A stretch of 64,000 nt of DNA, taken from positions 372,001 to 436,000 of the forward strand of contig NZ_FNBT01000002.1 of NCBI RefSeq assembly GCF_900102425.1, in the 5' to 3' direction. Shown here piece after piece: positions 43,079 through 61,681 of the stretch. The stretch's first letter is position 1; the number at the start of each line of letters is the position of its first letter. Source of the DNA: Blastococcus aurantiacus (GTDB taxonomy: Bacteria > Actinomycetota > Actinomycetes > Mycobacteriales > Geodermatophilaceae). A model generated the notes under the pieces. It was given only the letters and a program-made list of their open reading frames with translations. It was not told where the DNA came from and did no database searches. A program made the translations under genes and the position numbers.

Positions 43079-43106
43079 TCAAGTCGAGACCGAAAGTTGC
43101 CGATGA
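43079..43106 (+). promoter_or_regulatory. FliA-type promoter upstream of fliA
   Basis: TCAAG at 43079-43083, 15 nt, GCCGATGA at 43099-43106. The -10 part is close to the classical sigma-28 element GCCGATAA. The same pattern occurs at fliC, flgB and flbD, which suggests fliA is autoregulated. If transcription starts near 43113, the GTG at 43110 would be too early and GTG 43146 is favoured. Confidence 0.7.
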
Positions 43107-43145
43107 GCGGTGCCACCCCGGCCCGGGTCAGCCGAGAAGAGAGGC

Positions 43146-44090
43146 GTGAGCCCAGCCCGTACCTTCGCGTCCGAGCGCCCTCAGCGCGAGCGGATCCCGC
43201 TCGAACGTCCCGCCGCCGGACGCACTCCGCACCCGTCGAAGCCTCCTGTCCGGGCGCGGAGCCAGGCCGACGTCGACGCCCTGGTCACGGAGCACCTGCC
43301 GTTGGCCGCGTTCGCGGTGAACGCCGTCGCGGCCCGCATCTCGTTGCCCGCGCACGTCAGCCGGGACGACCTGCTCTCCTGCGCCCACGTGGCCCTGGTC
43401 GAGGTCGCCAGGCGCTTCGACCCCTCGGCCGGCGCCTCGTTCAGCACCTACGCCCTGGCGCGGTTGCAGGGAGCGGTGCTCGACGAGCTGCGCTCGGGCG
43501 ATTGGGCTAGCCGCTCGGTGCGCGCCGCCGCCCGCCGCACCGACGCCGCCGCCGACGCGCTCACCATCTCGCTGGGCCGGCCCCCGACGCGCGAGGAGCT
43601 GGCCGCCGCGCTGGGCGTGCCGAGCAGCGAGCTCGACAGCCTGCGGGTGGACGTCCACCGCGCGGTCATGGTGAGCATCGACGCCGAGACCGGCGCCGAC
43701 GGGAGTTCGCTCGACCTGCCGGACACCGGGGAGTCCCCCGAGCGCGCCCTGCTCCGCACCGAACGGGCGCGGTACCTGCACGAGGCGATCCGCGCGCTGC
43801 CCGACCGGCTGGACGAGGTCGTCGAGCGGAACTTCTTCGGTGACGAATCGCTGACCGACATCGCGGAGGACCTCGGCGTCACCCTCTCCCGCGTCTCGCA
43901 GATGCGGGCTCGCGCCCTCACGCTCCTCCACGCCGCCATGAGCGAGGTGTGGGACGGCAGGGCCGTACCCGCCGACGGCGGCGTGCGCGCCCGCAACCAG
44001 CAGCGCAGCTACGTCGACCGGGTCGCCGGCCGGCAGCACACCGTGCCCGGACCGCGCACCCCGTGGGCCGGGGTAGCCCGACCGGCCTGA
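43146..44090 (+). CDS. fliA: Flagellar sigma factor FliA (sigma-28)
   Basis: A 314-residue sigma factor. Region 2 reads VSRDDLLSCAHVALVEVARR, FDPSAGASFSTYALARLQGAV and LDELRSGDW. Region 3 includes LGRPPTREELAAALGVPSSE. Region 4 reads LPDRLDEVVERNFFGDESLT and EDLGVTLSRVSQMRARAL. An N-terminal Arg/Pro-rich part of about 40 residues and a C-terminal tail are extra. The start is GTG 43146 because of GAAGAGAGG upstream and the promoter at 43079; GTG 43110 is the alternative. It is divergent to flgN and central to the motility region. Confidence 0.9.
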   Translation: MSPARTFASERPQRERIPLERPAAGRTPHPSKPPVRARSQADVDALVTEHLPLAAFAVNAVAARISLPAHVSRDDLLSCAHVALVEVARRFDPSAGASFSTYALARLQGAVLDELRSGDWASRSVRAAARRTDAAADALTISLGRPPTREELAAALGVPSSELDSLRVDVHRAVMVSIDAETGADGSSLDLPDTGESPERALLRTERARYLHEAIRALPDRLDEVVERNFFGDESLTDIAEDLGVTLSRVSQMRARALTLLHAAMSEVWDGRAVPADGGVRARNQQRSYVDRVAGRQHTVPGPRTPWAGVARPA

Positions 44091-44114
44091 GGCCGGTCCC
44101 CCTCTCCCGAACGA

Positions 44115-44152
44115 CGTGGTCCCCGTACGCCTGACGGCGGACGGGGACCACG
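44115..44152. terminator. Hairpin terminator between fliA and the glycosyltransferase
   Basis: CGTGGTCCCCGT (44115-44126) pairs perfectly with ACGGGGACCACG (44141-44152). It lies between convergent genes. Confidence 0.65.
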
Positions 44153-44189
44153 GTGAACGGCCGGCGGGTGGACGGCTGGGTCGGACGAG

Positions 44190-46094
44190 CTACCCCGTCA
44201 CCAGGGCGCGGTCGGTCGTCCACAGGGCGGAGCCCAGGAGCTCGTCGACGACGTCGAGCGCGTCGGCAGAGAAGGTGAGTTCCTCACCGATCGACAGACC
44301 CGCCACCTCGGGTGCCTCCACCTCCAGGCAGAGATCCCCGCAGTCCTCGGTCGTCTGCCCCACGCTCTCGAGCACCGACGTGAGGCACGCGATGCTGGCG
44401 GCCGCGGTCGCGTCGTCGCCGGGCACCGGAGGCAGGCTGACCCGCAGGCGCGGGTGTGCCGCCGCGGTCTCGGCCAACCGCGCCATCCAGGCCTCGTGGC
44501 ACTCCCAGCCCGCGGGGACGCGGACCGCGAGCGTCGGCCGGTGGGCGGCGACGACCGCGAGGTCGTAGCGCATCCGGCGGTCGAGGAGCCCCGCGATCGG
44601 CTCGGCGAAGAACTCCGGTGCCGGGATCGTGCCCGCCGGCATGATGCGTGCGGTGAGCGCCGAGAGGCGGGCTCCGTAGCCGGGCTCCTCGATCCGTTCG
44701 GGGTACTCGTCGAGATCCGCAGGGGCCGCCGACCTGGCCAGGTCGTACACCGCCTCGAGCCCGGCGTCCCAGGCCGGGCCGGCGTTGACGGCGCGGACCT
44801 GCTCGGCGGCGTGCCGCCCCCGTCGGTGGCGCAGGTCGGGATCGGCCACCAGCTCGGCCAGCGTCGCGAAGTACTCGTCGTCGGTCCGCCCCACGTACCC
44901 CGCACCGGTCACGCCGGGGATGTCGGCGTGGTAGACGTCCCCGTACGGGATGTCCGGCTGGAGGCTGAGGGTGGGAAGCCCGGCCATGGCCGCCTCGACG
45001 AGGGCCGTTCCGCCGGTCAGCGGGTAGGAGTCCAGGTACAGGTCCATCGCCGGGAAGAGGGACTCGGGATCGGGGAGGAAGCCGAGCGGGAAGACCCGTC
45101 CCGGGAACCTCTCCCCCAGCGCCTGCCACTGTTCCGTGTCCGAGGGCCCGACGAGGTAGACCACGAGCTGGTCGAACCGCTCCAGGGCCTGCGCGAGGAT
45201 CCCGTCGAAGCCCTCCCCCCACACCGGCGACATCTTGTACGGGCTGCCCACCGACAGGGCGGCCACCTGGTCCTGCAAGCCCAGCGCCGCCCGCATCTCC
45301 TCCCGCGAGGACGACAGCGGGACGTCGGGGACGGGCAGCGCCAGCCGGGCATGCCGCTCGGGGCGGACGCCGCGGAGCTCACGGGTGACACGGAGCCCGG
45401 GTGAGCGGTTGTCCACCACGAGGTCGGCGCAGCCGAGGCCGAGCCAGAACGTGTGGTCGGCGTGGTTCTCCAGGAGCACCGGTGGCCGGCGACCGGGCAT
45501 GTTCGCGGCCGCCAGGGCGATGGCGTCCCAGGGGTGCGTGTGGAGGACGACCACGTCGGCGGCGTCCATGTGCCGGCGCAGTGCGTGCGCCCGGGCACCG
45601 AAGGTGGGGTGCGCCTCCTTGAGGTCGAAGACCTGACCTCCCGTGGACCGGGCGGCGGCCCGCAGCGGTTCGGGCGACGGCCCGCCCTGATTGGTGAGCA
45701 CGACGTCCGAGCGACGGGGATCGCGCTCGATCCACCGCCACGCGAGGCGGGTGTGCCCGCCGACGCCGTAGGTCTCGCTCAGCACGTGCAGCACACGGCC
45801 ACGGGCCCGCTGCCCGTCGATCTCGGGCGCGGGCCCCCCGGCGCGGGCGGCGGACACCACGGCGCGCTCGAGCCGCGGGTCGGCGAGCAGCCCGACGGGC
45901 GCGCACCAGGTCATGTTCCCGATCAGGGTCGCGGTCAGCAGCACCCTTTCCAGGTCGCCCTGGCGGGCGTAGGCCTCGACGACCTCCACCAGCCGGTCGT
46001 ACTGCTCGCGGTGGGCCGCGACCCGTCGCAGTGCGTCGTCGGAGACCGAACGGGCGGCGACCGGGGTGCGCGGGCCGGGGATCTGCATGGTCAT
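44190..46094 (-). CDS. GT4-like glycosyltransferase, probable flagellin modification
   Basis: A 634-residue enzyme. An N-terminal helical part (about 1-95) precedes a GT-B fold: VLHVLSETYGVGGHTRLAWR near 100, DVVVLHTHPWDAIALAAANM, VAALSVGSPYKMSP and the donor-site region LDSYPLTGGTALVEAAMAGL near 360. The last 160 residues are a separate domain. It resembles the TPR/GT proteins found in flagellar glycosylation islands, and it lies between fliA and fliC. The donor sugar is unknown. It is read away from fliC, 7 bp after the next glycosyltransferase. Confidence 0.75.
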   Translation of the reverse strand: MTMQIPGPRTPVAARSVSDDALRRVAAHREQYDRLVEVVEAYARQGDLERVLLTATLIGNMTWCAPVGLLADPRLERAVVSAARAGGPAPEIDGQRARGRVLHVLSETYGVGGHTRLAWRWIERDPRRSDVVLTNQGGPSPEPLRAAARSTGGQVFDLKEAHPTFGARAHALRRHMDAADVVVLHTHPWDAIALAAANMPGRRPPVLLENHADHTFWLGLGCADLVVDNRSPGLRVTRELRGVRPERHARLALPVPDVPLSSSREEMRAALGLQDQVAALSVGSPYKMSPVWGEGFDGILAQALERFDQLVVYLVGPSDTEQWQALGERFPGRVFPLGFLPDPESLFPAMDLYLDSYPLTGGTALVEAAMAGLPTLSLQPDIPYGDVYHADIPGVTGAGYVGRTDDEYFATLAELVADPDLRHRRGRHAAEQVRAVNAGPAWDAGLEAVYDLARSAAPADLDEYPERIEEPGYGARLSALTARIMPAGTIPAPEFFAEPIAGLLDRRMRYDLAVVAAHRPTLAVRVPAGWECHEAWMARLAETAAAHPRLRVSLPPVPGDDATAAASIACLTSVLESVGQTTEDCGDLCLEVEAPEVAGLSIGEELTFSADALDVVDELLGSALWTTDRALVTG

Positions 46095-46101
46095 GACCGG
46101 C

Positions 46102-47178
46102 TCAGGCGCCGATGCGCTGGCTGCGGACCCGGTTGTCGAGCGCCCGACGCCAGGCGTCCGCCCAGACCGGGGCGGTGTGCTCGGTCAGGTGCTGGGCGAG
46201 TACCACCTCGCGGTTGCGGGCAGCGATCTCGCGGCGGCGGTCGCCGTCGTCGATCGCCTTCGCGATGTGGTCGGCCCAATCACGGGGCCGCTTCGCCCGC
46301 ATGCCCAGGCCCAGGCGCTCGTAGTCCGGTGTGTTCGACCGGATCGGGAAGACACCGCGGGCGGCGTACTCCAGGGGCTTGAGCCAGCTCTTGGCCTCGT
46401 TGAACCGGTCGAGCCGCAGCGGGGCGATGCCCACGTCGAAGAGCTCTCCCACGGCCGAGAGGTACTCGTCCACGGTGTCCTTCCACGGCACCTCGATCGG
46501 CGGCTCCGGGAGGTGCAACCGCTGCTGGGCGTCCATGGCCTGACCGAGGATCGTGAACCGGCTCGCGCGGCGCGCGCGGTCCAGCCCCTGCTGCAGTCCC
46601 GACTCCATGGCCTGGAGGTCGTAGGGGTGGCTCGCCAGCGATCCCGTCCAGCCGACCGTGACCGTCTCCGGCTCCGGCCGGTCGTAGGCGGGGGCCAGCT
46701 CGGCGATCCGCCGGGGGATGGCGTTGGGCACCACGACGCCACGACCGTGCCGGGCGTACTCCTCCAGCAGCGCCGGGGTGGTGGCGGTGACCAGGTCCGC
46801 CTCGCGGGCGCATGCCGCGATCCAGTGCGCGACGTTGTGGTGCTGGATCGTGGCGAAGCCCATGTGCCCGTAGGCGATGCCGCTGAACAGGTCGTCGATC
46901 TCCACGACGACGGCCACGCCCTGCGCCTGGAGCAGACGCAGGATCTGCAGGGCCGGCTTCGTCTTCGGCAGCTGGAGGACCACGACGTCCGCGCCGTCCG
47001 CGTCCACCGAGATCACGTCGGAGGACTCGTCCTCGGCCGGACCGCTCATCCGCGTGGCGAGCCCGTAGCTCAGGGTGACCTGGACTTCGAGGCCCGCCTC
47101 GTTGACGGCCCGGGCGGGCTCGGTCGCCCGGTAGTACAGCGACCCCGCGAAGCGGGTCGACGACAACTTGACCTTCAT
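46102..47178 (-). CDS. GT4-family glycosyltransferase, probable flagellin modification
   Basis: A 358-residue GT-B enzyme. It reads SLYYRATEPARAVNEAGLEV, DADGADVVVLQLPKTKPALQ, VAVVVEIDDLFSGIAYGHMG, VVVPNAIPRRIAELA, VTVGWTGSLASHPYD and IAPLRLDRFNEAKSWLKPLE near residue 270, followed by YAARGVFPIRS, a typical donor-binding pair. ATG 47178 is divergent to fliC with 294 bp between the two starts. A role in decorating flagellin is inferred from position. Confidence 0.75.
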   Translation of the reverse strand: MKVKLSSTRFAGSLYYRATEPARAVNEAGLEVQVTLSYGLATRMSGPAEDESSDVISVDADGADVVVLQLPKTKPALQILRLLQAQGVAVVVEIDDLFSGIAYGHMGFATIQHHNVAHWIAACAREADLVTATTPALLEEYARHGRGVVVPNAIPRRIAELAPAYDRPEPETVTVGWTGSLASHPYDLQAMESGLQQGLDRARRASRFTILGQAMDAQQRLHLPEPPIEVPWKDTVDEYLSAVGELFDVGIAPLRLDRFNEAKSWLKPLEYAARGVFPIRSNTPDYERLGLGMRAKRPRDWADHIAKAIDDGDRRREIAARNREVVLAQHLTEHTAPVWADAWRRALDNRVRSQRIGA

Positions 47179-47374
47179 GGCCGGCGGGTGTCCTTCCGGG
47201 TCCGGGTTCACGACGCCGCCACGGTGCGGACCACACCGGGCTGGCAACGGCCCCACGCGGAGCCACCGGGCTCCCCATCGGCAGTCCCGGTGCGGGTCGA
47301 CACCGCACGATCGCGGTTCTGCGGCTGCCTCGGCCCCGTCCGGGTGAAGCAGTCGAAAAAGTCCCGGATTCGGG

Positions 47375-47402
47375 TCAAGGACCGGCGCCGGACAGCCGTA
47401 GA
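47375..47402 (+). promoter_or_regulatory. FliA-type promoter of fliC
   Basis: TCAAG at 47375-47379, exactly 15 nt, GCCGTAGA at 47395-47402. The predicted transcript starts near 47409 and has a leader of about 65 nt with four GGA motifs. Confidence 0.65.
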
Positions 47403-47427
47403 CCCCTGTGCAACACCCCGCCAGCAC

Positions 47428-47467
47428 GGATGCCAGCGGATTCAAGTAAGGCCCCGTCCAAGGAGGA
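47428..47467 (+). promoter_or_regulatory. Candidate CsrA-binding GGA motifs in the fliC leader
   Basis: GGA occurs at 47428-47430 (in GCACGGATGC, which can form a small hairpin with GGA in the loop), 47438-47440, 47462-47464 and 47465-47467. The last two are the ribosome site. CsrA dimers are known to bridge such sites and block ribosomes. Binding here is inferred. Confidence 0.45.
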
Positions 47468-47472
47468 ACCTC

Positions 47473-48309
47473 ATGGGTCTCAGCGTCAACACCAACATCG
47501 CGGCGATGAACTCGTACCGCAACCTGTCCAACACGGACAACCAGCTCAGCAAGTCGCTGGAGAAGCTCTCCTCGGGCTACCGGATCAACCGCGCCGCCGA
47601 CGACGCGGCCGGCCTGGCCATCTCCGAGGGCCTGCGCTCGCAGATCGGTGGCCTCAAGGTCGCCATCCGCAACACGCAGGACGGCGTCTCCGTCGTGCAG
47701 ACCGCTGAAGGTGCGCTCACCGAGACGCACGCCATCCTTCAGCGCATGCGCGACCTGGCGGTCCAGTCGGCGAACGGCAGCAACGACGCCAACTCGCGTT
47801 CGGCTCTCAACTCCGAGGCGACCGCGCTGAAGGACGAGCTGACCCGCATCGCCGACAAGACCACGTTCAACAACGTGAAGCTGCTCGACGGCACCTTCTC
47901 GTCGCAGAACTTCCAGGTCGGCTACGCCTCTGGTGACACCATCTCGGTGAGCATCAAGGGCTCGGCCGCCGGTTCGGGCTTCTCCGCTACGCAGCTCGGC
48001 GTCAGCGGCGTGGACCTGAGCTCGGCCAGCGGCGCGGCTGCTGCGATCGGCTCCATCGACACCGCCATCAAGACGGTCTCCACCTCGCGTGCGGACCTGG
48101 GTGCCCTGCAGAACCGGTTCGAGCACACCATCAAGAACCTGAGCGTGACCCAGGAGAACCTGCAGGCCTCCGAGTCCCGCATCCGCGACACCGACATGGC
48201 CCAGGAGATGACCAACTTCTCCCGGAACCAGATCCTGAGCCAGGCCGGTACCTCGATGCTCGCGCAGGCCAACCAGGCCTCGCAGAACATCCTGAAGCTG
48301 CTGGGCTGA
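47473..48309 (+). CDS. fliC: Flagellin
   Basis: Filament subunit of 278 residues. The N-terminal D0/D1 region reads SVNTNIAAMNSYRNLSNTDN, SSGYRINRAADDAAGLAISE and QDGVSVVQTAEGALTETHAI. The C-terminal region reads SRADLGALQNRFEHTIKNLS, ESRIRDTDMAQEMTNFSRNQ and SMLAQANQASQNILKLLG. The middle (about 150-190) is very short, so this is a minimal flagellin lacking D2/D3 domains. AAGGAGGAA precedes ATG 47473. Regulated by a FliA-like promoter and probably CsrA/FliW. Confidence 0.97.
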   Translation: MGLSVNTNIAAMNSYRNLSNTDNQLSKSLEKLSSGYRINRAADDAAGLAISEGLRSQIGGLKVAIRNTQDGVSVVQTAEGALTETHAILQRMRDLAVQSANGSNDANSRSALNSEATALKDELTRIADKTTFNNVKLLDGTFSSQNFQVGYASGDTISVSIKGSAAGSGFSATQLGVSGVDLSSASGAAAAIGSIDTAIKTVSTSRADLGALQNRFEHTIKNLSVTQENLQASESRIRDTDMAQEMTNFSRNQILSQAGTSMLAQANQASQNILKLLG

Positions 48310-48326
48310 TCCTCGCGGATCTCCTG

Positions 48327-48348
48327 AGGTGGTCCCCCGGGACCACCT
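48327..48348 (+). terminator. First hairpin after fliC
   Basis: AGGTGGTCC pairs with GGACCACCT around a 4-nt loop, 18 nt after the flagellin stop. Confidence 0.55.
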
Positions 48349-48368
48349 GAGCAGCACCCTGCACCACC

Positions 48369-48403
48369 GGTGAGGGGGGAGGCCCTGGGCCTCCCCCCTC
48401 ACC
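48369..48403 (+). terminator. Second, strong hairpin between fliC and fliD
   Basis: A 16-bp perfect stem (48369-48384 with 48388-48403) with a 3-nt loop. With the previous hairpin it probably limits readthrough from the abundant flagellin transcript into fliD. Confidence 0.7.
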
Positions 48404-48434
48404 GCGCACGGCAACCCGACACCTTGGAGGCGCA

Positions 48435-49826
48435 GTGGCCGGCATGAGCGTGGGAGGCCTGGTGTCCGGCATGGACACCGCCTCGATCATCGACGGGCTG
48501 ATCTCCGTCGAGGCGAACTCCCAGACCCTGCTCAAGCAGCGGCTGTCCGCCACCCAGTCCCAGGGCACCGCCTACCGGGCCATCAACACCCGCTTCGACG
48601 CCGTCCGCTCGGCCGCCGAGGCACTCACCAAGGACGCCGCCTGGCAGTCCGCGAAGGCGCTGAGCTCGTCGACGTCGGTCACCGCCAGCTCGGTCGGCGG
48701 CGCAACCGCGGGTTCGGTCACCTTCACCGTGGACCAGGTCGCCAAGGCGCACTCGGCGGTCAGCTCCACGACGTGGACGGCGACCGGGACCCAGACCGCC
48801 GACGACATCGACTTCGGTGCCACGACGCTCGACGTCGTCGTCGGGGGCAAGACGACCAACGTCAGCCTGGACCGCAACGGCGACGGCAAGGCCACCCTCT
48901 CCGAGGCCGCCGCGGCGATCAACGCCGCCGGTCTCGGCGTGACCGCGACCCCGCTGAAGGTCACCGACACCGGCTACCGGATGTCGCTCACCTCGACGAC
49001 CACCGGCGCCGCCTCGGCCTTCAGCGCCACCGGGTTCACGACCGCCACGCAGGGGCGCAACGCCGAGATCACCGTCGGCGACGCCGGCAGCAGCTACAGC
49101 ATGAGCTCCCCGACCAACACGTTCTCCGGGCTGATCGCCGGGACGACGATCACGGTCACCAAGCCGGAGACCGGCGTGACCGTCAACGTGACCCCCGACC
49201 CCGACGCGGTCGCCGCAAAGGTCGAGTCGCTGGTCACCGCGGTGAACGGGCTCCTCGACAGCATCTCCGCCTACACCGACGCCGACAGCGGCACCGCCTC
49301 CCTGAAGGGCGACAGCACGCTGCGCCAGCTGGCGACGCAGACCCTCGACGTCCTCGCCTTCGCCGTCGGCAGCGACGGCTCGGCCTCCAAGGTCGGGCTG
49401 CAGCTGACCAAGGACGGGCACTACACGTTCGACAAGACGAAGTTCACCGCCCAGCTCGCCGCCGACCCCACCGTGGCGCGGCGCATGTTCGACTCGGCCA
49501 CCGCGAACGGTGGCGCGGACGACGACCTGGCCACCACGGCGGACAACGGCACCACGCCGACCGGCATCGCCGCCAAGTTGCTCGCCATGGCCAAGTCGGC
49601 GACCGACACGACGATCGGGTCGCTGACCGTGCTGGCCAAGGGCACCGACACCCGGGCCAAGGAGCTCAAGGACAGCATCGCCGCCTGGGACCTCCGGCTG
49701 GAGATGCGGCGGGCGACGCTCACCCGCCAGTTCACCGCGATGGAGACCGCGCTCAGCACGATGCAGAACCAGTCCAACTGGCTGGCCTCCGCCATGAGCT
49801 CCATGTCGGGGACGAAGAAGCAGTAG
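48435..49826 (+). CDS. fliD: Flagellar cap protein FliD (HAP2)
   Basis: A 463-residue filament cap. It starts AGMSVGGLVSGMDTASIIDG and contains FTVDQVAKAHSAVSS and the C-terminal coiled coil IAAWDLRLEMRRATLTRQFT ending with ALSTMQNQSNWLASAM. GTG 48435 has GGAGG 4 nt upstream; ATG 48444 is an alternative. It is followed by fliS. Confidence 0.94.
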   Translation: MAGMSVGGLVSGMDTASIIDGLISVEANSQTLLKQRLSATQSQGTAYRAINTRFDAVRSAAEALTKDAAWQSAKALSSSTSVTASSVGGATAGSVTFTVDQVAKAHSAVSSTTWTATGTQTADDIDFGATTLDVVVGGKTTNVSLDRNGDGKATLSEAAAAINAAGLGVTATPLKVTDTGYRMSLTSTTTGAASAFSATGFTTATQGRNAEITVGDAGSSYSMSSPTNTFSGLIAGTTITVTKPETGVTVNVTPDPDAVAAKVESLVTAVNGLLDSISAYTDADSGTASLKGDSTLRQLATQTLDVLAFAVGSDGSASKVGLQLTKDGHYTFDKTKFTAQLAADPTVARRMFDSATANGGADDDLATTADNGTTPTGIAAKLLAMAKSATDTTIGSLTVLAKGTDTRAKELKDSIAAWDLRLEMRRATLTRQFTAMETALSTMQNQSNWLASAMSSMSGTKKQ

Positions 49827-49902
49827 CGCCCGACCGGCTCGTGCAGTCCGGCCGCGTCGGCCGGCCATCCCCCGCAGGACACAGATCTAGGAGTCGATCA
49901 CG

Positions 49903-50289
49903 ATGAGCAACGCGGCCCTGCGCGCTCGTTATCTCGGGAACTCGGTCACCACGGCCTCCCCGCAGCAGCTGCTGGTGATGCTCTACGACCGGCTCGCACT
50001 CGACCTCGAGCGTGCCCAGATCGCCATCGCCGACGGCGACCGCGACGAGGCCACCGCGCAGGTCCAGCACGCACAGGACATCGTGCTCGAACTGCTCGCC
50101 AGCCTGCGCGTCGACATCTGGGAGGGCGGGCCCCGCCTGGCCGCCCTCTACGACTGGCTGATCCGCGAGCTGTCGCAGGCCACCATCAAGCCGGACGCCA
50201 ACCGGATCGGCTCCTGCCGCTCGGTCGTCGAGCCGCTGCGCGATGCGTGGCGGCAGGCAGCGGCATCCCTGGCCGGCGCCCCGTCATGA
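49903..50289 (+). CDS. fliS: Flagellin export chaperone FliS
   Basis: A 128-residue helical chaperone that holds flagellin before export. Family motifs: RYLGNSVTTASPQQLLVMLY near the start and YDWLIRELSQATIKPDANRI. It lies 76 bp after fliD and overlaps the next gene by 4 bp. Confidence 0.93.
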   Translation: MSNAALRARYLGNSVTTASPQQLLVMLYDRLALDLERAQIAIADGDRDEATAQVQHAQDIVLELLASLRVDIWEGGPRLAALYDWLIRELSQATIKPDANRIGSCRSVVEPLRDAWRQAAASLAGAPS

Positions 50290-50714: not shown

Positions 50715-50783
50715 CCGCCGCCGACCCGAACCGCACGCCCACACCTACCCAGCCCCGCCCCCGGCCCAGCCGGCGGCGGGGCT

Positions 50784-50826: not shown

Positions 50827-50945
50827 AGAAGAGTTGCCAACTCCCCCGTCCCCGTCGGCCCAGGACACGGCGAGGTCACCGCCAGTCCCACCCGCCACCG
50901 CTCCCCCTCGGGGTCACACGCTTCTCTCGCGGATCACCCGGACGG

Positions 50946-50973
50946 TCAGCCGGGAGGCCCGCGCTGCCGATGA
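50946..50973 (+). promoter_or_regulatory. FliA-type promoter of the flgB operon
   Basis: TCAGC at 50946-50950, 15 nt, GCCGATGA at 50966-50973. The -10 part is identical to that of fliA; the -35 differs from TCAAG at two positions. Confidence 0.6.
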
Positions 50974-51066: not shown

Positions 51067-51099
51067 GTGTCCCGCTCGTCCGTTCTCCCCGCTCGATGA
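51067..51099 (+). CDS. Putative 10-codon leader peptide overlapping the flgB start
   Basis: GTG 51067 is preceded at 5 nt by GGAGGT, the best ribosome site in this leader. The frame reads VSRSSVLPAR and stops at TGA 51097-51099, overlapping the flgB ATG (51096) as ATGA. flgB itself has no good ribosome site, so its translation may depend on this leader. The same GTG cannot serve flgB because the frames differ. Confidence 0.4.
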   Translation: MSRSSVLPAR

Positions 51100-51443
51100 T
51101 CGGGGAGATCACCCCCGCCGCCCTGCACGCCAGCCTCTCCGGTCTGGCCCAGCGTCAGCGGGTCACCGCCGACAACATCGCCAACATCAACACCCCGGGC
51201 TTCCTCGCCGGCCGCGTGGACTTCGAGTCCTCGCTCGCGGGCGCGCTGCGCAACGGCGAGACGCCGCAGATCAACGGGGGCACCGTCGCCCGCTCGCTGG
51301 AGCCGACCAACACCAACGGCAACAACGTGAACCTGGATGCGGAGACCCTCATCGCCACCGAGACCGGCCTGCGGTACCAGCTGGCCCTGAACGCGCTGGA
51401 CGGCAAGTACAACTCCATCCGCACGGCCCTCAGGACGCAGTGA
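51096..51443 (+). CDS. flgB: Flagellar basal-body rod protein FlgB
   Basis: A 115-residue rod subunit. It reads LHASLSGLAQRQRVTADNIA then NINTPGFLAGRVDFESSL, the rod-protein motif, and ends NALDGKYNSIRTALRTQ. ATG 51096 is the only good start for this fold, with the overlapping leader peptide upstream. Confidence 0.93.
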   Translation: MIGEITPAALHASLSGLAQRQRVTADNIANINTPGFLAGRVDFESSLAGALRNGETPQINGGTVARSLEPTNTNGNNVNLDAETLIATETGLRYQLALNALDGKYNSIRTALRTQ

Positions 51444-51445
51444 CC

Positions 51446-51850: not shown

Positions 51851-51852
51851 TC

Positions 51853-53774: not shown

Positions 53775-54850
53775 CGCTCGCGGGCATGGACCAGTTGCTG
53801 GCTGCGGACGGGGCGAACCTGCCCGCTGTTCCCCCGGCTCCCGCACGGCCGGAGCTCCCCGGACTGCGCAAGGCCGCGGTCTTCCTGGCGCAGATGAGCA
53901 AGGAGGAGGCCGGCGTCCTGCTGGCCAAGCTCCGTCCGCGCGAGGTCGAGTCGCTGACCCGGGAGCTCATGCGCCTGGGCTCGGTCGAGCTCGGGGACGT
54001 GGACGAGGTGATGAACGAGTTCCACGGCCTGATGACCGCGCAGCACTTCATCGGCCGGGGCGGCGTCGAGTTCGCCCGCGAGATCCTCGCGGCGGGCCTC
54101 GGGGAGGACAAGGCGGGCGACATCCTGTCCCGCCTCAACGTCGTCTACACCGAGGTGCCGTTCGCCTCCCTGCGCAACGCGGACGTGCGGCAGCTCGTCA
54201 CGTTCCTCAAGGACGAGCACGCGCAGATCATCGCGCTGGTGCTCGCCCACCTCCCGGCGGGGCAGTCGGCCGAGGTGCTGTCGGGTTTCGCCCCCGAGCA
54301 GCAGGCCGAGGTCGCGCACCGCATCGCCACGATGGACCGCACCTCGCCGGAGATGGTCCGCCTCGTGGAGGAGGAGCTGGGCCGCCGGATGGGCTCGATC
54401 CTGGCCCACCAGGACATGTCCACCGCCGGTGGCGTCGAGGCCCTCGTCGAGATCATCAACCGCTCGCCGCGGCCCACCGAGCGCTCCATCCTCGAGTGGC
54501 TGGACAGCACCGACCCGGAGCTGGCCGACCAGGTCCGCTCGCAGATGTTCGTCTTCGAGGACATCGTCACCATCGACGACCGCTCCCTGCAGCTGGTGCT
54601 GCGCGAGGTCGAGGCCAACGACCTGGCCACGGCGCTCAAGGGTGTGCGGCCCGACGTCCGCGACAAGATCCAGCGCAACCTCTCCGAGCGCGCCGCCGAG
54701 AACCTCTCCGAGGAGATCGAGCTGCTCGGCCCGGTGCGCACGCGCACCGTCGAGGAAGCACAGGCCAAGGTCGTCGGCGTCATCCGCACGCTCGAGGAGC
54801 AGGGTGTGCTGACCATCTCGCGCGGCGGGGACGATGAGTTCGTTGCCTGA
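53771..54850 (+). CDS. fliG: Flagellar motor switch protein FliG
   Basis: A 359-residue rotor protein. It includes LRKAAVFLAQMSKEEAGVLL, EHAQIIALVLAHLPAGQSAE, the EHPQ-like region, FEDIVTIDDRSLQLVLREVE and the C-terminal charged torque helix region (VRPDVRDKIQRNLSERAAEN). It contacts MotA and switches rotation. It overlaps fliH by 17 bp. Confidence 0.97.
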   Translation: MTLAGMDQLLAADGANLPAVPPAPARPELPGLRKAAVFLAQMSKEEAGVLLAKLRPREVESLTRELMRLGSVELGDVDEVMNEFHGLMTAQHFIGRGGVEFAREILAAGLGEDKAGDILSRLNVVYTEVPFASLRNADVRQLVTFLKDEHAQIIALVLAHLPAGQSAEVLSGFAPEQQAEVAHRIATMDRTSPEMVRLVEEELGRRMGSILAHQDMSTAGGVEALVEIINRSPRPTERSILEWLDSTDPELADQVRSQMFVFEDIVTIDDRSLQLVLREVEANDLATALKGVRPDVRDKIQRNLSERAAENLSEEIELLGPVRTRTVEEAQAKVVGVIRTLEEQGVLTISRGGDDEFVA

Positions 54851-55688
54851 GCCCCGCACGAACGGCGGGGCGGCCCTGGTCGCCCCGGACTCCATGGCGG
54901 TCGTGCTGCGCAGCGCGGACGCCGGCGCACCGCCGGCCCCGCGGGCACCGCGCGAGGGCGCCGTCCTGCGCGGTGGCGCGGCGAGCAGTGCCCGCCCGTA
55001 CCGCCAGGTCGCGGACGTGCCGGCCCCCCGTCCGGAGCCCTCGCCCATCGAGCGCCGCACGACGGTCCGCCGCGCGGAGGACCAGCCCGTCGCCGGCGGC
55101 CGGCCCACCGTCCGCCTCGGGGAGGTCTACGCCGAGGAGCTCGACCGGCTGCGGCGCCAAGCCCACGCCGAGGGCTTCGCCGCGGGGCGGGTCGAGGGCA
55201 TGGCCGCGGCCGCCGAGGTGGTCGCGCAGGCCGAGCAGGCCGCCGCCGAGCGCATGGCCGAGGCGCAGCAGCGCTGGGAACGGCGGATCGCCTCGGCCAC
55301 CGCCGCCCTCGGCGCCGCTGCCGCGCGCCTCGAGGAGTCCTCCCTGCCGACCGCGGAGGACATCCGCGAGACCGTCATCGGCTCCGTGCTCACCCTGCTC
55401 GAGGACCTGCTGGGCCGGGAGCTGGCCCTGGCCGACTCCCCCGTGCTGGACGCGGTGCGCCGCGCGCTGACCCTCTGCCCCGCCGACGCGCCCGCCCTCG
55501 TGCGCGTGCACCCCGACGACCTGGCCGAAGTCCCGGCCGACGCGCTCGCCGAGCTGCCCGACCACGTCCGCGTGGTCGCCGACCCCGCGGTCGAGCGGGC
55601 CGGCGCGATCGCCGAGACCGGCTCCCGGCGCATCGACGCCCAGCTCGTCTCCGCGCTCGAGCGGGTGCAGGCGGTGCTGCTCGCATGA
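54834..55688 (+). CDS. fliH: Flagellar export apparatus protein FliH
   Basis: A 284-residue ATPase stator. A Pro/Arg-rich N-terminus of about 95 residues is followed by a helical FliH/VATPase-E-like part (LRRQAHAEGFAAGRVEGMAA, AEQAAAERMAEAQQRWERRI) and a C-terminal domain (DLAEVPADALAELPDHVRVV, ETGSRRIDAQLVSALERVQA). The 17-bp overlap with fliG and 4-bp overlap with fliI suggest tight coupling. Confidence 0.9.
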   Translation: MSSLPEPRTNGGAALVAPDSMAVVLRSADAGAPPAPRAPREGAVLRGGAASSARPYRQVADVPAPRPEPSPIERRTTVRRAEDQPVAGGRPTVRLGEVYAEELDRLRRQAHAEGFAAGRVEGMAAAAEVVAQAEQAAAERMAEAQQRWERRIASATAALGAAAARLEESSLPTAEDIRETVIGSVLTLLEDLLGRELALADSPVLDAVRRALTLCPADAPALVRVHPDDLAEVPADALAELPDHVRVVADPAVERAGAIAETGSRRIDAQLVSALERVQAVLLA

Positions 55689-57001
55689 CCCCGCCCGCCC
55701 TCCCCCTGTCGCTCCTCACCCGCGCCCGCGCGGCCGCGTCGCCCCAGGTCACCGGGGTGGTCACCGGAGCGATGGGCCTGACGCTCACCGTCGACGGAAT
55801 CGCCGCCGCCGTCGGCGACCTGGTCGAGATCAACCCCGCCACGCGGCCCCTGCTGGCCGAGGTCGTGGCCGTCGGGCGGGACCGGCTCACCTGCATGCCG
55901 CTGGGCACGCTGTCCGGCGTCCACGCCGGGGCGCCCGTGCGGGCCACCGGGATGCCGCTCCAGGTGCCGGTCGGCGAGGCGCTGCTCGGCCGCGTCCTCG
56001 ACGGGCTGGGCCGCCCGGTCGACGGCGGGCCGCCGCTGGCCTCCCGGGTCTCCTGGGTCGACCTGGCGAGCGAGACGCCGCACGCCCTGTCCCGCACCCG
56101 CGTGGAGGAGCCGCTCACCTTCGGCGTCCGCGCCCTGGACACCCTCGTCCCCTGCGGCAAGGGCCAGCGCCTGGGCATCTTCGCCGGCTCGGGCGTCGGC
56201 AAGTCCAGCCTGCTCGCTCAGATCACGCGGGGCACCGATGCCGACGTCCGCGTCATCGGCCTCATCGGCGAGCGAGGCCGTGAGGTCCGCGAGTTCCTGG
56301 AGGAGAACCTCGGCCCGGAGGGGATGGCGCGCACCGTCGTCGTCGTCGCCACCTCCGACGAGCCGCCGCTGGTCCGGCTGAAGGCCGCCTTCGTCGCCAC
56401 CCGCATCGCCGAGGCGTTCCGCGACCAGGGCCGCGACGTGCTGCTGCTCATGGACTCGATCACCCGGACCGCCATGGCCCAGCGCGAGGTCGGGCTGTCC
56501 GCGGGCGAGCCGCCGGCCACCCGCGGCTACCCGCCGAGCGTCTTCGCGATGATGCCGCAGCTGCTGGAGAAGGCCGGCACGGGCGCCGTCGGCTCCATCA
56601 CGGGGCTCTACACCGTGCTGGTCGAGGGCGACGACCACAACGAACCGATCGCCGACACCGCGCGCTCGATCCTGGACGGGCACATCGTGCTCACCCGGAA
56701 GCTCGCCACCGTCGGGCACTTCCCGGCCATCGACGTGCTGGAGTCGATCTCCCGCGTCGCCACGGCCGTCGTGCCGCCGCCGCAGATGGCCGACGCCCGC
56801 GAGATCCGCCGGCTGATGGGTGCGCTGCGCGACGTCAAAGAACTCATCGAGATCGGCGCCTACCAGGCCGGCAGCGACCCGCTGGTCGACCGGGCACGCG
56901 ACCTCGCCCCGCAGATCGAGGCCTTCCTGCAGCAGCCGATGGGTGAGTCGACGCCGACGCCCGAGGCGTGGGCGTGGCTGCAGCGGATCGTGCGGTCGTG
57001 A
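55685..57001 (+). CDS. fliI: Flagellum-specific ATPase FliI
   Basis: A 438-residue export ATPase. Walker A GIFAGSGVGKSSLLAQI, catalytic Glu in IGERGREVREFLEENLG, Walker B VLLLMDSITRTAMAQREVGL and the arginine-region ATRGYPPSVFAMMPQLLEKA. Powers type III export of rod, hook and filament proteins. Confidence 0.97.
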   Translation: MTPPALPLSLLTRARAAASPQVTGVVTGAMGLTLTVDGIAAAVGDLVEINPATRPLLAEVVAVGRDRLTCMPLGTLSGVHAGAPVRATGMPLQVPVGEALLGRVLDGLGRPVDGGPPLASRVSWVDLASETPHALSRTRVEEPLTFGVRALDTLVPCGKGQRLGIFAGSGVGKSSLLAQITRGTDADVRVIGLIGERGREVREFLEENLGPEGMARTVVVVATSDEPPLVRLKAAFVATRIAEAFRDQGRDVLLLMDSITRTAMAQREVGLSAGEPPATRGYPPSVFAMMPQLLEKAGTGAVGSITGLYTVLVEGDDHNEPIADTARSILDGHIVLTRKLATVGHFPAIDVLESISRVATAVVPPPQMADAREIRRLMGALRDVKELIEIGAYQAGSDPLVDRARDLAPQIEAFLQQPMGESTPTPEAWAWLQRIVRS

Positions 57002-57450
57002 AGAAGGCCGCCTTCCGGCTGCAGCCGGTCCTCGAGCTGCGCCGCACGCAGGAGCGCGCCGCCGCCGTGGCCTCGGCCCGCGCGGCCGCCGCGGCGTCGG
57101 ACGCGGCCCGGCGCGCGTCCGACTACGAGACGACGCTCGCCACGGCCTCGCTGCCGCGATCGCTCCCGTCCGGCGACTTCCTGGCCGCCATGACGGTGCT
57201 GCGCTTCGCCGCCACCGACGCCTCCGACGCCCGCGCCGCCGCGACCGCCGCGGCCGAGCAGGCCGAGGCGGTCCGCGCGCAGTGGACGGCGGCGGCGCAG
57301 CGCACCAAGGCGCTGGAGCGGCTGCGCGAGCGCCACCGCGAGGCCCAGCAGCACGCCGAGGCCGCCGCCGAGGAGCGCGCGGTCGACGACCTGGTGACCG
57401 GCCGCGCCGGCCGGGGAACCGCCGAGGAGGAGGTCCCGTGGACGGCCTGA
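56998..57450 (+). CDS. fliJ: Flagellar export protein FliJ
   Basis: A 150-residue coiled-coil protein of the export ATPase. It begins KKAAFRLQPVLELRRTQER and continues as an Ala/Arg/Glu-rich coiled coil. GTG 56998 overlaps the fliI stop (GTGA). Low sequence conservation is normal for FliJ; the position and coiled coil support the call. Confidence 0.85.
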   Translation: MKKAAFRLQPVLELRRTQERAAAVASARAAAAASDAARRASDYETTLATASLPRSLPSGDFLAAMTVLRFAATDASDARAAATAAAEQAEAVRAQWTAAAQRTKALERLRERHREAQQHAEAAAEERAVDDLVTGRAGRGTAEEEVPWTA

Positions 57451-58391
57451 CCGCGGTGCAGGCGCGGATCAGCGAGATCCAGTCCCGCTTCACCCCGCAG
57501 ATCGCGGCGTCCTCGTCCGGCTGGGCGTCGGCCGCTGCGGCCGCCGGCCTGGGCGGCACCACTGCCGCGTCCAGCAGCTCCGCCACGAGCGCGGCCGGGA
57601 CAGCCTCCGAGACGGCGGTCGTCGCCGAGGCGACCAAGCACCTCGGGGTCCCCTACCTCTGGGGCGGCACGGACCCCGCGAAGGGGCTGGACTGCTCCGG
57701 CCTGGTCCAGGTCGTCTTCGGCAACCTCGGCATCGACCTGCCCCGAACGTCCTCCCAGCAGGCCACCAGCGGCACCGCCGTGGCCTCGCTCGCCGACGCC
57801 CGCCCCGGCGACCTGGTCTTCTTCGACCACTCGTCGTCCCGGGCCGGCATCGACCACGTCGGCATCTACGTCGGCAACGGCAAGATGATCGCCGCGCCGC
57901 AGGCGGGCGAGGTCGTCAAGGTGCAGGACGTCGGCAACCCGACCTCCATCCGGCGGGTCCTCCCCCAGGCCGCGCCGGTCGCCGCGGCGGCAGGGGTCGG
58001 CGGGGGCGTCGCCGGCGTCCCCTACGCAAACCTGTTCACCGGCGCCGCCGGCCGCCACGGGGTCGACGCCTCGCTGCTGGCCGCCGTCGCCTCGGTCGAG
58101 TCGAACTTCGACGCCGGCGCGGTCTCCCCCGCCGGCGCCGAGGGCCTCATGCAGTTCATGCCGGCCACCGCCCGCGGCCTCGGGGTGTCCGCCCTCGACC
58201 CGGCATCGGCCGTCGACGGCGCCGCCCGCTACCTCAAGCAGCTGACCGGGCAGTTCGGCTCCACCGAGCTGGCGCTGGCCGCCTACAACGCCGGGCCGGG
58301 GACGGTGAGCCGCTACGGCGGCATCCCGCCCTACCCGGAGACCCAGAACTACGTCCGCAACGTCATGAGCAAGGCGGAGGCCTACCGATGA
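57438..58391 (+). CDS. Flagellar-operon peptidoglycan hydrolase: NlpC/P60 plus lytic transglycosylase
   Basis: A 317-residue fusion. Residues about 55-175 are an NlpC/P60 endopeptidase with Cys in GLDCSGLVQVVF and His in GIDHVGIYVGNGK. Residues about 200-315 are a soluble lytic transglycosylase: the catalytic Glu in VASVESNFDAGAVSPAGAEG, LMQFMPATARGLGV and LALAAYNAGPGTVSRYGG. There is no signal peptide, which suits export by the flagellar route. It may open the wall for the growing rod as FlgJ does elsewhere. GTG 57438 has GAGGAGG upstream and overlaps fliJ by 13 bp. Confidence 0.88.
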   Translation: MDGLTAVQARISEIQSRFTPQIAASSSGWASAAAAAGLGGTTAASSSSATSAAGTASETAVVAEATKHLGVPYLWGGTDPAKGLDCSGLVQVVFGNLGIDLPRTSSQQATSGTAVASLADARPGDLVFFDHSSSRAGIDHVGIYVGNGKMIAAPQAGEVVKVQDVGNPTSIRRVLPQAAPVAAAAGVGGGVAGVPYANLFTGAAGRHGVDASLLAAVASVESNFDAGAVSPAGAEGLMQFMPATARGLGVSALDPASAVDGAARYLKQLTGQFGSTELALAAYNAGPGTVSRYGGIPPYPETQNYVRNVMSKAEAYR

Positions 58392-59785
58392 GCGCACCCC
58401 TGATGCCGACGGCGCCCGCCGTCCGCGGGCCCTCGACCGGTGGTGCCGCGGACGCGGGCGGCGCCGAGAGCGCCGCACCGTTCGCCTCCGCGCTGGACGG
58501 CGCCCTGTCCGAGGGCCGCGGAGCGGTCGACGACGGGGCGACCGACGACGGCGGGGCGCAGGACCACGGGTCCGCGGCCACGACCGTCGTCCCCGTCGAC
58601 GCCGTGGCCGCCGGGGTGCCCGCACCCGCGGACCTCGCCGCCACGCTCTTCGCCCTCGCCCTCGGGACGTCCCAGGCCGCCGCGCAGGCGGCGGGCACCG
58701 GCGCTGCGCCCACCATCACGACCGACGGCGGCACGGTCGCCGGGGTCGCGGCCGCGGCCGCAGCACCGGCCACCGTCGCCGGAGCCGCGCCTGCCCTCGC
58801 CGTCCCGGCTCCGACCGCCACGACTGCGCCCACCGCGGCGGCGGGGGTCTCCCCGGTCCTCGCGGGCGGCGGCGCACCGGCGTCCGCGACCGGCCTGCCC
58901 GTCGACGTGGTCGTCACGTCGCCCGTGCCCGGGACGCCGGGTGCCGCAGCGGCTCCCACCGGGCCGTCCCTCGTCACGGCCGGCGCCACCGCGGCAGGCC
59001 CGACCGCGGCCTCCGCCCCGGCCGGCGTCCTCACCGAGGCGGCCACCACGGTGGCCGCGGCCGCGTCGGCCGCCGGAGCCGCGACGGCGTCGGTGTCCAC
59101 CGGCGCCGATCCGGCCGCCCCGGGCACCTCCGTGCCGGCCGGGACCGACCTGCCCGTGGCGGGCGCCGCCTCGTCGGCCGGTGCGGACACCGGAGCGGCG
59201 GGCCAGGACGCCGGCGGTACGCCGTCGGGCAGTGGATCCACCGAGCCGGTCACGACCGGGATCTCCGGCCCGGCACCCACCGGCACGGCAGCGGCCGCCG
59301 CCGACGCCGACGGCCCGACCGCCGCAGCGAGCCAGCCGGTGGCGGCGCAGGTCGCCCGGCAGGTGGCCGTCCTGCGCGGTGCACCCGACGGCTCGCACAC
59401 CATGACCCTGGTCCTCACCCCCGAGACCCTCGGGCCGGTGGAGGTCTCGGTGACCGTCACCCAGGGCACGATCGACCTGGTCCTCCGCGGGGCGCACGAG
59501 CAGAGCCGGGCCGCGCTGCTCGACGCGCTGCCCGACCTGCGCCGCGACCTCGAGTCCGCCGGCCTGGTGACCGCCAAGCTCGAGGTGTCCAAGGACAGCG
59601 GCGGGTCGTGGCTGGACCGGCACGCCGCCGGTCAGCAGGCCCAGCAGGGCTTCGGCGACCGCCCCGGGCAGCAGGGTCCGGCCGACGGTCGGTCACGACC
59701 ATGGCTGCGGCCTGCCGATAGCGGAGAGACCAGGACCGCCCCGACCACCGGATCCGGCTCGTCGGGCGTCGACGTCCGCGTCTGA
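58388..59785 (+). CDS. fliK: Flagellar hook-length control protein FliK
   Basis: A 465-residue protein. The first 320 residues are Ala/Thr/Pro/Gly-rich and probably extended, as expected of a molecular ruler. The C-terminal hook-length domain reads AQVARQVAVLRGAPDGSHTM, LVLTPETLGPVEVSVTVTQG and HEQSRAALLDALPDLRRDLE. Coupled to the hydrolase by ATGA, followed after 15 bp by flgD. Confidence 0.9.
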   Translation: MSAPLMPTAPAVRGPSTGGAADAGGAESAAPFASALDGALSEGRGAVDDGATDDGGAQDHGSAATTVVPVDAVAAGVPAPADLAATLFALALGTSQAAAQAAGTGAAPTITTDGGTVAGVAAAAAAPATVAGAAPALAVPAPTATTAPTAAAGVSPVLAGGGAPASATGLPVDVVVTSPVPGTPGAAAAPTGPSLVTAGATAAGPTAASAPAGVLTEAATTVAAAASAAGAATASVSTGADPAAPGTSVPAGTDLPVAGAASSAGADTGAAGQDAGGTPSGSGSTEPVTTGISGPAPTGTAAAAADADGPTAAASQPVAAQVARQVAVLRGAPDGSHTMTLVLTPETLGPVEVSVTVTQGTIDLVLRGAHEQSRAALLDALPDLRRDLESAGLVTAKLEVSKDSGGSWLDRHAAGQQAQQGFGDRPGQQGPADGRSRPWLRPADSGETRTAPTTGSGSSGVDVRV

Positions 59786-59800
59786 ACAGGAGACCCACCC

Positions 59801-60256
59801 ATGACGGACGCACTCAACGGCTACGGCACCGTCCCGCCGCCCTCCGCGACCCCCCAGGTCGACCGCGGGGACCAGATGGGCAAGGACACCTTCCTCAAGC
59901 TCCTGGTCGCGCAGATGCGCTACCAGGACCCCTCGAAGCCGGTGGACAGCTCGCAGATGATCGCGCAGACGGCGACCTTCACCCAGGTGGAGAAGCTCGA
60001 GCAGCTCGCCACGATGGGCGCCACGTCGCTGGTGCTCCAGGAGCACGCGGCCGCGGGCGCCATGGTCGGCCGCCAGGTCACCTACACCGACACCAACGGG
60101 GCCACCGTCACCGGCCTCGTCTCCTCCGTCCGCCTCGCCTCCGGCAAGTCCGAGGCCGTCGCCGTCGTCGACGGCAAGGACGTGCAGGTCGGCCGGATCA
60201 CCGCACTCTCCACCCCCACGCCGAGCTCAGGGACGAGCTCCTCCGCGGCGTCCTGA
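59801..60256 (+). CDS. flgD: Flagellar hook scaffold protein FlgD
   Basis: A 151-residue scaffold for hook assembly. It contains MGKDTFLKLLVAQMRYQDPS, KPVDSSQMIAQTATFTQVEK and GAMVGRQVTYTDTNGATVTG. It is shorter than enterobacterial FlgD because the C-terminal Ig/Tudor part is minimal. Confidence 0.93.
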   Translation: MTDALNGYGTVPPPSATPQVDRGDQMGKDTFLKLLVAQMRYQDPSKPVDSSQMIAQTATFTQVEKLEQLATMGATSLVLQEHAAAGAMVGRQVTYTDTNGATVTGLVSSVRLASGKSEAVAVVDGKDVQVGRITALSTPTPSSGTSSSAAS

Positions 60257-60293
60257 CCCACTTCCCCGCACGACACCCGAGGAGATCCTCCGC

Positions 60294-61562
60294 ATGCTCC
60301 GCTCCATGTTCTCCGCCATCTCCGGCCTGAAGGCCCACCAGGCGAAGATGGACGTCACCGGTAACAACATCGCCAACGTCAACACCGTCGGCTACAAGAG
60401 CAGCGCCACCGTCTTCCAGGACACGCTCTCGCAGGTCGTGCGCGCCGGTGGCGCCCCGGCCGCCGACCGCGGCGGCACGAACCCGGCCCAGATCGGCCTC
60501 GGCGTGAAGCTGGCGGCCATCACGACCAACTGGACCAACGGCGCCGCCCAGTCCACCGGCCGCTCGACCGACTTCATGATCGAGGGCGACGGCTTCTTCG
60601 TGACCCGTGGTCCCGGCGGCGAGCAGCTCTACACCCGGGCCGGCTCCTTCGACTTCGACGCCGGCGGCCGGCTGACCACCCCGGACGGCAGCATCCTCCA
60701 GGGCTGGCGGGCGGACGCGAACGGCGCCATCAACGCCAACGGGCCGATCGAGGACCTGACCGTCCCCTACGGCGCCACCGTGCCCCCGGAGCCCACCGGC
60801 AACTCCGCCCTCGGCGGCAACCTGAACTCCGCCGCTGCCGTCGGCGCGTTCGTGCAGACCCCGGTCCGCATGTACGACCAGATGGGCGTGGCCCAGCAGG
60901 TGACCTACACCTTCACGAAGCTGGCCGACAACGAGTGGCAGCTCGTCGTCAACAACGGCGACGACGACGGCAACCCCGCCACCCCGCCGCCGGCGCTGGC
61001 GCTGACCAACCCCGACGGCACCGCCTTCGACGGCGTCGTGCGGTTCGACCCGGTGAACGGCGCCATGACCGCGCCGGCCGGCCAGATCCGCTTCGCCCCC
61101 GGTGCGGTCGCATGGCCCGACCCGGTGACGATCGACCTCGAGGGCCTGACCCAGTTCGGCGGCAAGAGCGAGGTCGTGCCGACCGACGTCGACGGCTACG
61201 CACAGGGCTCCCTCCAGGGCTTCGAGCTCTCGAACGACGGCACCATCACCGGCACCTACTCCAACGGGCTCCGGCAGAACCTGGGCCAGCTGTCGATGGC
61301 GTCGTTCAACAACCCGAGCGGCCTGGAGAAGGCGGGCAACTCCTCGTTCCGGATCGCGCAGAACTCCGGCGAGGCGATGATCGGCGTCGCCGGTGCCGGC
61401 GGCCGCGGCATCCTCTCCTCCGGCGCGCTGGAGATGTCGAACGTCGACCTCTCCGAGGAGTTCACCAGCCTGATCGTCGCCCAGCGCGGCTTCCAGGCGA
61501 ACAGCCGCGTGATCAGCGCCTCCGACGAGCTCCTCGGCGACCTCGTCAACCTGAAGCGCTAG
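60294..61562 (+). CDS. flgE: Flagellar hook protein FlgE
   Basis: A 422-residue hook subunit. It begins MLRSMFSAISGLKAHQAKMD with the motif GNNIANVNTVGYKSSATVFQ and DGFFVTRG, and ends EMSNVDLSEEFTSLIVAQRG and FQANSRVISASDELLGDLVN. GAGGAGA precedes ATG 60294. Confidence 0.96.
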   Translation: MLRSMFSAISGLKAHQAKMDVTGNNIANVNTVGYKSSATVFQDTLSQVVRAGGAPAADRGGTNPAQIGLGVKLAAITTNWTNGAAQSTGRSTDFMIEGDGFFVTRGPGGEQLYTRAGSFDFDAGGRLTTPDGSILQGWRADANGAINANGPIEDLTVPYGATVPPEPTGNSALGGNLNSAAAVGAFVQTPVRMYDQMGVAQQVTYTFTKLADNEWQLVVNNGDDDGNPATPPPALALTNPDGTAFDGVVRFDPVNGAMTAPAGQIRFAPGAVAWPDPVTIDLEGLTQFGGKSEVVPTDVDGYAQGSLQGFELSNDGTITGTYSNGLRQNLGQLSMASFNNPSGLEKAGNSSFRIAQNSGEAMIGVAGAGGRGILSSGALEMSNVDLSEEFTSLIVAQRGFQANSRVISASDELLGDLVNLKR

Positions 61563-61568
61563 CCCGTC

Positions 61569-61612
61569 GCCGGTCCCGTCCGCATCCCCCGGTGGGTGTG
61601 GGCGGGACCGGC
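61569..61612 (+). terminator. Hairpin after flgE
   Basis: GCCGGTCCCG (61569-61578) pairs with CGGGACCGGC (61603-61612). It ends the flgB-flgE run just upstream of the promoter at 61654. Confidence 0.6.
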
Positions 61613-61653
61613 GGTCCGGCGCCCCCGGGTGACCGGCGCGCGCCCCGCTCGGC

Positions 61654-61681
61654 TCAAGGACCTGCTGTCCGACGCCGATGG
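61654..61681 (+). promoter_or_regulatory. FliA-type promoter of flbD-motAB
   Basis: TCAAG at 61654-61658, 15 nt, GCCGATGG at 61674-61681. Seven of eight -10 positions match fliA. It lies 78-105 nt before the flbD start. Confidence 0.68.

Follow-up and report, generated by a model that had tools for sequence, protein, structure and literature searches.

Putative FliA promoters of the flagellar units of Blastococcus aurantiacus share a spacer one base longer than that of most other actinomycete families sampled

The stretch of Blastococcus aurantiacus (Geodermatophilaceae) DNA analysed here, hereafter the window (64 kb; positions 372,001 to 436,000 of contig NZ_FNBT01000002.1), carries a flagellar gene cluster in which several units are preceded by a promoter-like element, TCAAG-N15-GCCGWWGR (N, any base; W, A or T; R, A or G). 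The gene fliA (43146..44090, GTG start inferred) encodes a divergent sigma factor of the FliA/WhiG family with the Pfam sigma-70 regions 2, 3, and 4, and is preceded at 43079..43106 by TCAAG-N15-GCCGATGA. The flagellin gene fliC (47473..48309, Shine-Dalgarno sequence aggagg), for which all the flagellin models listed scored below their own cut-offs, has gTCAAG-N15-GCCGTAGA at 47375..47402. The rod protein gene flgB (51096..51443; Pfam Flg_bb_rod), which judging by gene order heads a basal-body and hook unit, is preceded at 50946..50973 by gTCAGC-N15-GCCGATGA, and flbD (61759..62037, GTG start; Pfam FlbD, E 2.9e-26 in a scan from 61762), followed by motA (62041..62811; Pfam MotA_ExbB), is preceded at 61654..61681 by cTCAAG-N15-GCCGATGG. 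All of these genes and sites are on the plus strand. When the sequence was read again, the four sites were found where an earlier sequence-only reading had placed them, each with exactly 15 nucleotides between its boxes; three are exact matches, and the flgB site deviates, as that reading had also noted, by carrying TCAGC, which differs from the TCAAG form by two mismatches. The longest open reading frames (ORFs) of flgB and flbD begin at ATGs inside the -10 boxes, and these were excluded as starts, since homology begins downstream; because the homology starts are ATG 51096 (flgB) and GTG 61759 (flbD), both sites lie upstream of their genes.

The exact pattern occurs three times in the window, at the fliA, fliC, and flbD-motAB sites, and not once in 60 simulated 64-kb windows (first-order Markov). 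Across the genome (4.16 Mb in 18 contigs), exact matches number four, these three before flagellar units and one at C18:238452, which lies ahead of a conserved gene for a membrane protein. At one mismatch or fewer, the genome gave 59 matches against 27 for a reversed control, and at three or fewer, the window gave 152 against a shuffled mean of 68; because of these figures the loosened forms are largely background, and the strict form alone is informative by itself. A TAAAG-N15-GCCGATGA site at C14:153642 had no nameable gene downstream.

Within the Geodermatophilaceae, FlbD-anchored clusters from 35 relatives (some cut short where a contig ended), together with the fliM side from 20 relatives, were scanned with spacers 10 to 20 and one score threshold, the window being included in the family counts. 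N15 was the best spacer in 142 of the 165 orthologous promoter regions, with no site in 16 and another spacer in seven. By unit, it was found at fliA in 17/29, fliC in 37/44 (all flagellin copies), flgB in 35/35, flbD in 32/36, and fliM in 21/21. The fliA site was weak or missing in four Geodermatophilus-type regions scanned (L083, L084, L085, and L087). Where present in relatives, the sites lay at about -67 for fliA, -81 to -109 for flbD, mostly -94 to -107 for fliC (-86 in two), and mostly -145 to -181 for flgB (-90 to -126 in three). A second, partly overlapping set of named genomes (Blastococcus, Geodermatophilus, Modestobacter, Klenkia, and others) gave N15 at 52/55 flgB, 70/101 fliC, and 44/80 fliA genes; judged by its nearest named relatives, the window falls in or near Blastococcus. 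When 76 family genomes were scanned regardless of orthology for TCAAG-N12..18-GCCGATGR, N15 accounted for 81 of the 150 matches listed, N14 for 24, and N17 for 20. The GCCGA-like box is kept at the fliA, fliC, flgB, flbD, fliM, and flgN sites in most relatives (at fliC mostly as GCCGTA), and the best sites differ by one base from the classical sigma-28 element GCCGATAA, a likeness to which the sequence-only reading had rightly pointed. As a rule, TAAA is absent from the -35 box, nearly all sites having TCAN, with the exception of TAAGG at one flgB site (L091) and TTGA at most flgN sites.

For comparison, 193 non-fliA regions were taken from sixty clusters of twenty other families of the class. 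Mainly CTCA(A/G)G-N14-GCCGA was found before many of the same genes, with N14 in 107 of the regions and N15 in 11; a further 24 had other spacers, and 51 had no site. Shuffled regions of these families passed the threshold, at any spacer, in 2/28 cases for fliC, 6/49 for flgB, and 3/60 for flbD; among their fliA regions, 14 of 16 had no site passing it. The TCAAG in place of TAAA, which the sequence-only reading had singled out, is correctly described but not peculiar, as CTCA(A/G)G is the commonest -35 form in the other families sampled. The real peculiarity, missed in that reading, is the N15 spacer where most sampled relatives have N14. The family designated f46 had mostly CTAAC-N14, and the family f39 was mixed, with N15 at five and N14 at two of 11 regions. 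In a scan with CTCAGG, the Geodermatophilaceae gave N14 in 14 of 56 matches, N17 in 17, and N15 in 13, and five genomes of the family f13 gave N14 in 16 of 24.

Sites of this type are also found before genes beyond the four units, so that the original set was real but incomplete. The fliM promoter, of the TCAG type with N15, lies at C13:436402-436429 of the genome (window position 64402, 402 bases beyond the window end). In 21/21 genomes, that of B. aurantiacus included, TCAG(G/C/T/A)-N15-GCCGATGA is followed after 7-8 nucleotides by the GTG start of fliM, and because of this short distance past the -10 box the fliM mRNA is probably leaderless. Divergent from fliA, a candidate promoter of the flgN-flgK-flgL unit (TTGAG-N15-GCCGAAGC; 43029..43056, minus strand) precedes flgN (42474..42953, minus strand; Pfam FlgN, E 5.8e-21), the first gene of this leftward unit as suggested by gene order. 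Its N15 register was kept in 26 of 29 genomes, the window included (TTGA in 23, TCAAC in three), and differed in the other three; in shuffled regions it was met in 6/2900. The exact site at C18:238452 stands before a gene (L004:594-1493, minus strand) whose GTG follows 7 nucleotides after the -10 box and whose product, probably a multi-pass membrane protein of about 300 amino acids, had no Pfam or NCBIfam match above cut-off. A relative of this gene with the same site and the same 7 nucleotides to GTG was present in four of 13 stretches fetched (L313, L314, L317, and L326), a biased count, as the stretches had been chosen from pattern matches; no such relative adjoined eight other N15 sites from those matches (L315, L316, and L318-L323), and the L324 site is the fliA promoter of genome G058, on another contig. 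Chemoreceptor genes were rejected as members: one of seven methyl-accepting chemotaxis protein genes has TCAAC-N14-GCCGATAG, five have no good site, and one (L110) starts outside its stretch. The anti-sigma factor family FlgM (PF04316) was likewise rejected as a regulator: it was matched in 0/76 family genomes, the majority of which carry a flagellar cluster (FlbD in 67/76), in a search for FlgM that matched 3/14 control genomes and that a divergent FlgM could escape.

The genome encodes two sigma factors of the FliA/WhiG type, the cluster FliA and a canonical WhiG. The best model for the former was TIGR02479 (FliA_WhiG), with 154 bits, under its cut-off of 189.6; the latter, at C12:41066, scored 389 bits to the WhiG equivalog and adjoins ORFs reading as xerC, tsf, and rpsB-region genes. 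Their next relative, at C9:158307, is of the SigB/F/G type. In a tree of 58 sequences, the eleven Geodermatophilaceae FliA formed one group (support 100/100) whose stem measured 1.87 changes per column, and the cluster FliA stood apart from four WhiG copies, also with 100/100. By alignment, the -35 recognition helix of the Geodermatophilaceae FliA is TLSRVSQMRARA, and TLSRVSQMR was present in 30/30 fetched clusters holding fliA and in 80/80 named loci. At the position of the Leu in TLSRVSQ, the residue in 43 flagellar FliA from other families is Glu (36), Asp (two), Gly (one), or His (four, all f46), f46 being the family with the CTAAC -35 box. The Geodermatophilaceae FliA are further marked by two residues inserted ahead of the conserved P(A/S/G)HVSR and, in region 2.4, by RLQG in place of R(I/V)RG.

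The sites are very probably promoters read by RNA polymerase with the cluster-encoded FliA, their boxes mostly separated by one base more than in most of the other families sampled. Because the strict sites are conserved, nearly confined to flagellar units, and similar to GCCGATAA, they are best read as a sigma-28-type (FliA) regulon. In such a regulon, region 2 of FliA would recognise GCCGATGA and region 4 the (C/G)TCA(A/G)G box, at the longer distance, at six units (flgN, fliA, fliC, flgB, flbD, and fliM), and a single sigma factor would activate the early flagellar genes along with the late ones. It would also switch on its own gene in part of the family, N15 being kept at 17 of 29 fliA genes. 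The interpretation first proposed, a FliA regulon that includes fliA, is supported in part and appears right in kind. Since the family-wide spacer shift coincides with the changed helix and the long stem of FliA, the comparison suggests that sigma factor and promoters have evolved in step. What the sequences themselves show is the presence of the sites, their conservation, the spacer statistics, and the divergence of the sigma factor; from such comparisons we infer FliA binding, the start sites, FliA dependence, and the operon extents, as well as the leaderless fliM, the role in timing considered below, and the concerted change of sigma factor and spacer.

The sites fall into two classes, labelled early and late after the flagellar gene classes of other bacteria. 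Early sites of the Geodermatophilaceae have G before TCA in 35/35 flgB and 21/21 fliM cases (56/56), as does the flgB site of the window, and late sites have C in 17/18 fliA, 28/32 fliC, and 32/32 flbD cases (77/82), as does its fliA site; the fliC site of the window is one of the four fliC sites with G. The early units thus show GTCA, mostly GGTCA, with a near-invariant GCCGATGA, and the late units mostly CTCAAG, their -10 box varying more; a TTCG block just upstream is common to fliC and flbD. In the other families, the base is C at fliC (7/8), flgB (25/28), flbD (36/42), and fliM (26/28), f46 and f18 having been excluded before counting for their differing -35 boxes. The likeliest role of the early/late difference would be to set relative promoter strength or timing. 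So consistent a division, together with the shared TTCG block, might also be expected if different factors served the two classes, an extra activator at either the early or the late units being one example; as both classes have the same spacer and nearly the same -10 box, this appears unlikely.

The spacer itself could be read otherwise, as a changed -35 box at constant distance, the CTCAGG of other families being read one base upstream as TCAAGN. Measured from the -10 box, A and G do align between the two forms, and the recognition helix of FliA did change. We nevertheless regard this reading as rather improbable, because the C before TCA is kept in 77/82 late sites, as if the whole CTCAAG box had been kept and moved, and because genome G374 of family f39 (L263) has CTCAAG and CTAAGG at N15 with an unchanged helix. 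That WhiG, alone or with FliA, reads these promoters is likewise quite improbable. Its gene is present in the genome, and, according to PMC8325347, WhiG shares the flagellar promoter specificity (consensus TAAA/GCCGATAA) and RsiG is reported in 16/16 Geodermatophilaceae. However, the -35 box quoted for WhiG is TAAA and not TCAA, the four WhiG copies aligned (that of B. aurantiacus and three from other families) have a near-uniform helix, TESRICQ(L/M)HTKA, and WhiG does not readily account for a spacer change throughout the family, whereas it is on exactly that stem that the cluster FliA changed. That the reader picked out chance matches in GC-rich DNA can practically be dismissed: loosened patterns are indeed common (152 with up to three mismatches in the window), but no simulated window held an exact match, and the orthologous sites at set distances in most relatives already refute such an origin.

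Several observations weigh against promoters read by a co-adapted FliA. The site score was modelled on the proposed motif itself, though spacers 10 to 20 were allowed, and shuffled family regions passed the threshold at some spacer in two cases for fliA, six for fliC, six for flgB, five for flbD, and none for fliM. Shuffled fliM regions of the other families passed in 12/56, making the fliM rows the noisiest. The scan of 76 genomes was not enriched in total (237 matches against 229 for the reversed control), and its N15 peak alone stands out. The flgN site is mostly TTGA and not TCA, the fliA site has been lost in part of the Geodermatophilaceae, and the chemoreceptor genes yielded, among seven with one upstream region not reached, a single candidate site, at N14. 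The four FliA of family f39 keep ESRVSQ with N15 at 5/11 regions, so that the helix change is neither needed for N15 nor shown as its cause, and the long FliA branch may reflect general fast evolution.

In Escherichia coli, sigma-28 promoters have the spacing TAAAG-N14. The regulon proposed here shares with the classical sigma-28 system a -10 box one base different at the best sites and the control of flagellin and motor genes; it differs in having TCAA and not TAAA, a spacer one base longer, and promoters of this one type for rod and switch genes as well. In Actinoplanes missouriensis, Jang and co-workers (Jang et al. 2016, J Bacteriol 198:2219) reportedly obtained CTCA(N15-17)GCCGAA from eleven flagellar starts and proposed one sigma factor for all flagellar genes. 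That promoter resembles that of the Geodermatophilaceae in its -35 core CTCA, in GCCGA, and in the single sigma factor proposed for all units, and TCAAG-N15-GCCG, which equals TCA-N17-GCCG, lies inside its range. The C of CTCA stands at 77/82 late sites of the family, but the early sites have G in its place in 56/56. The f13 genomes, assigned by guess to the Micromonosporaceae, have mostly TCA-N16, in contrast to the TCA-N17 that predominates in the Geodermatophilaceae. In place of the N14 that mainly follows CTCA(A/G)G in the other families sampled, 142/165 family regions have N15. With the WhiG-RsiG switch of Streptomyces and Rubrobacter (PMC8325347), the system shares the sigma family and the presence of WhiG in the genome; it differs in its cluster FliA, which branches separately from the four WhiG copies. 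The literature available in part on this consensus or on FliA in the Geodermatophilaceae yielded no report of a family-wide N15 spacing, nor was one given in the portions available of PMC8325347, PMC11064477, PMC10733313, PMC13293333, PMC10746217, PMC12691653, and PMC12781870. Thus neither this kind of promoter nor the idea of a single tier is new, and the regulon-wide extra spacer base with a divergent FliA seems new.

Other features of the cluster were also recorded. A 10-codon leader ORF (51067..51099, plus strand; GTG start, Shine-Dalgarno sequence ggagg) precedes flgB, its stop overlapping the flgB start as ATGA. Leader ORFs of 10-13 codons (GGAGG, GTG) end on or near the flgB start, usually with an ATGA or GTGA overlap, in 29 of 35 genomes, the window included, and their phase relative to flgB is identical in all 29, which suggests translational coupling or leader-peptide control. 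Between fliA and fliC (44190-47308, minus strand), two large ORFs resemble glycosyltransferases by their translations and possibly serve flagellin glycosylation. FliS was recognised by Pfam at 49903, and the clusters of four relatives (L084, L092, L093, and L094) hold three flagellin matches each. A second FlbD-like gene lies away from the flagellar cluster, at C13:126791-127210, and 34 of 76 family genomes have two FlbD matches; a second flagellar set, considered on account of this gene, was rejected, as there was no flagellar neighbour among the ORFs read in this genome.

It is possible, and we offer this tentatively, that in the ancestor of the Geodermatophilaceae the spacer of the whole regulon gained one base and the -35 helix of FliA lost a Glu retained in most relatives, and that the early GTCA class then split off, giving the one sigma factor a built-in order of expression without a recognisable FlgM. 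The regulon is small and compact, and at least five orthologous promoters of the family share a spacing lacking in most sampled relatives, which bears on the old question of how specificity can shift in a sigma factor and its promoters while the regulon stays intact; swaps of sigma factors and promoters between families would be a direct test of such a change. The pattern can also serve as a motif in searches for motility genes of the Geodermatophilaceae, and has already led to one membrane protein encoded outside the flagellar cluster.

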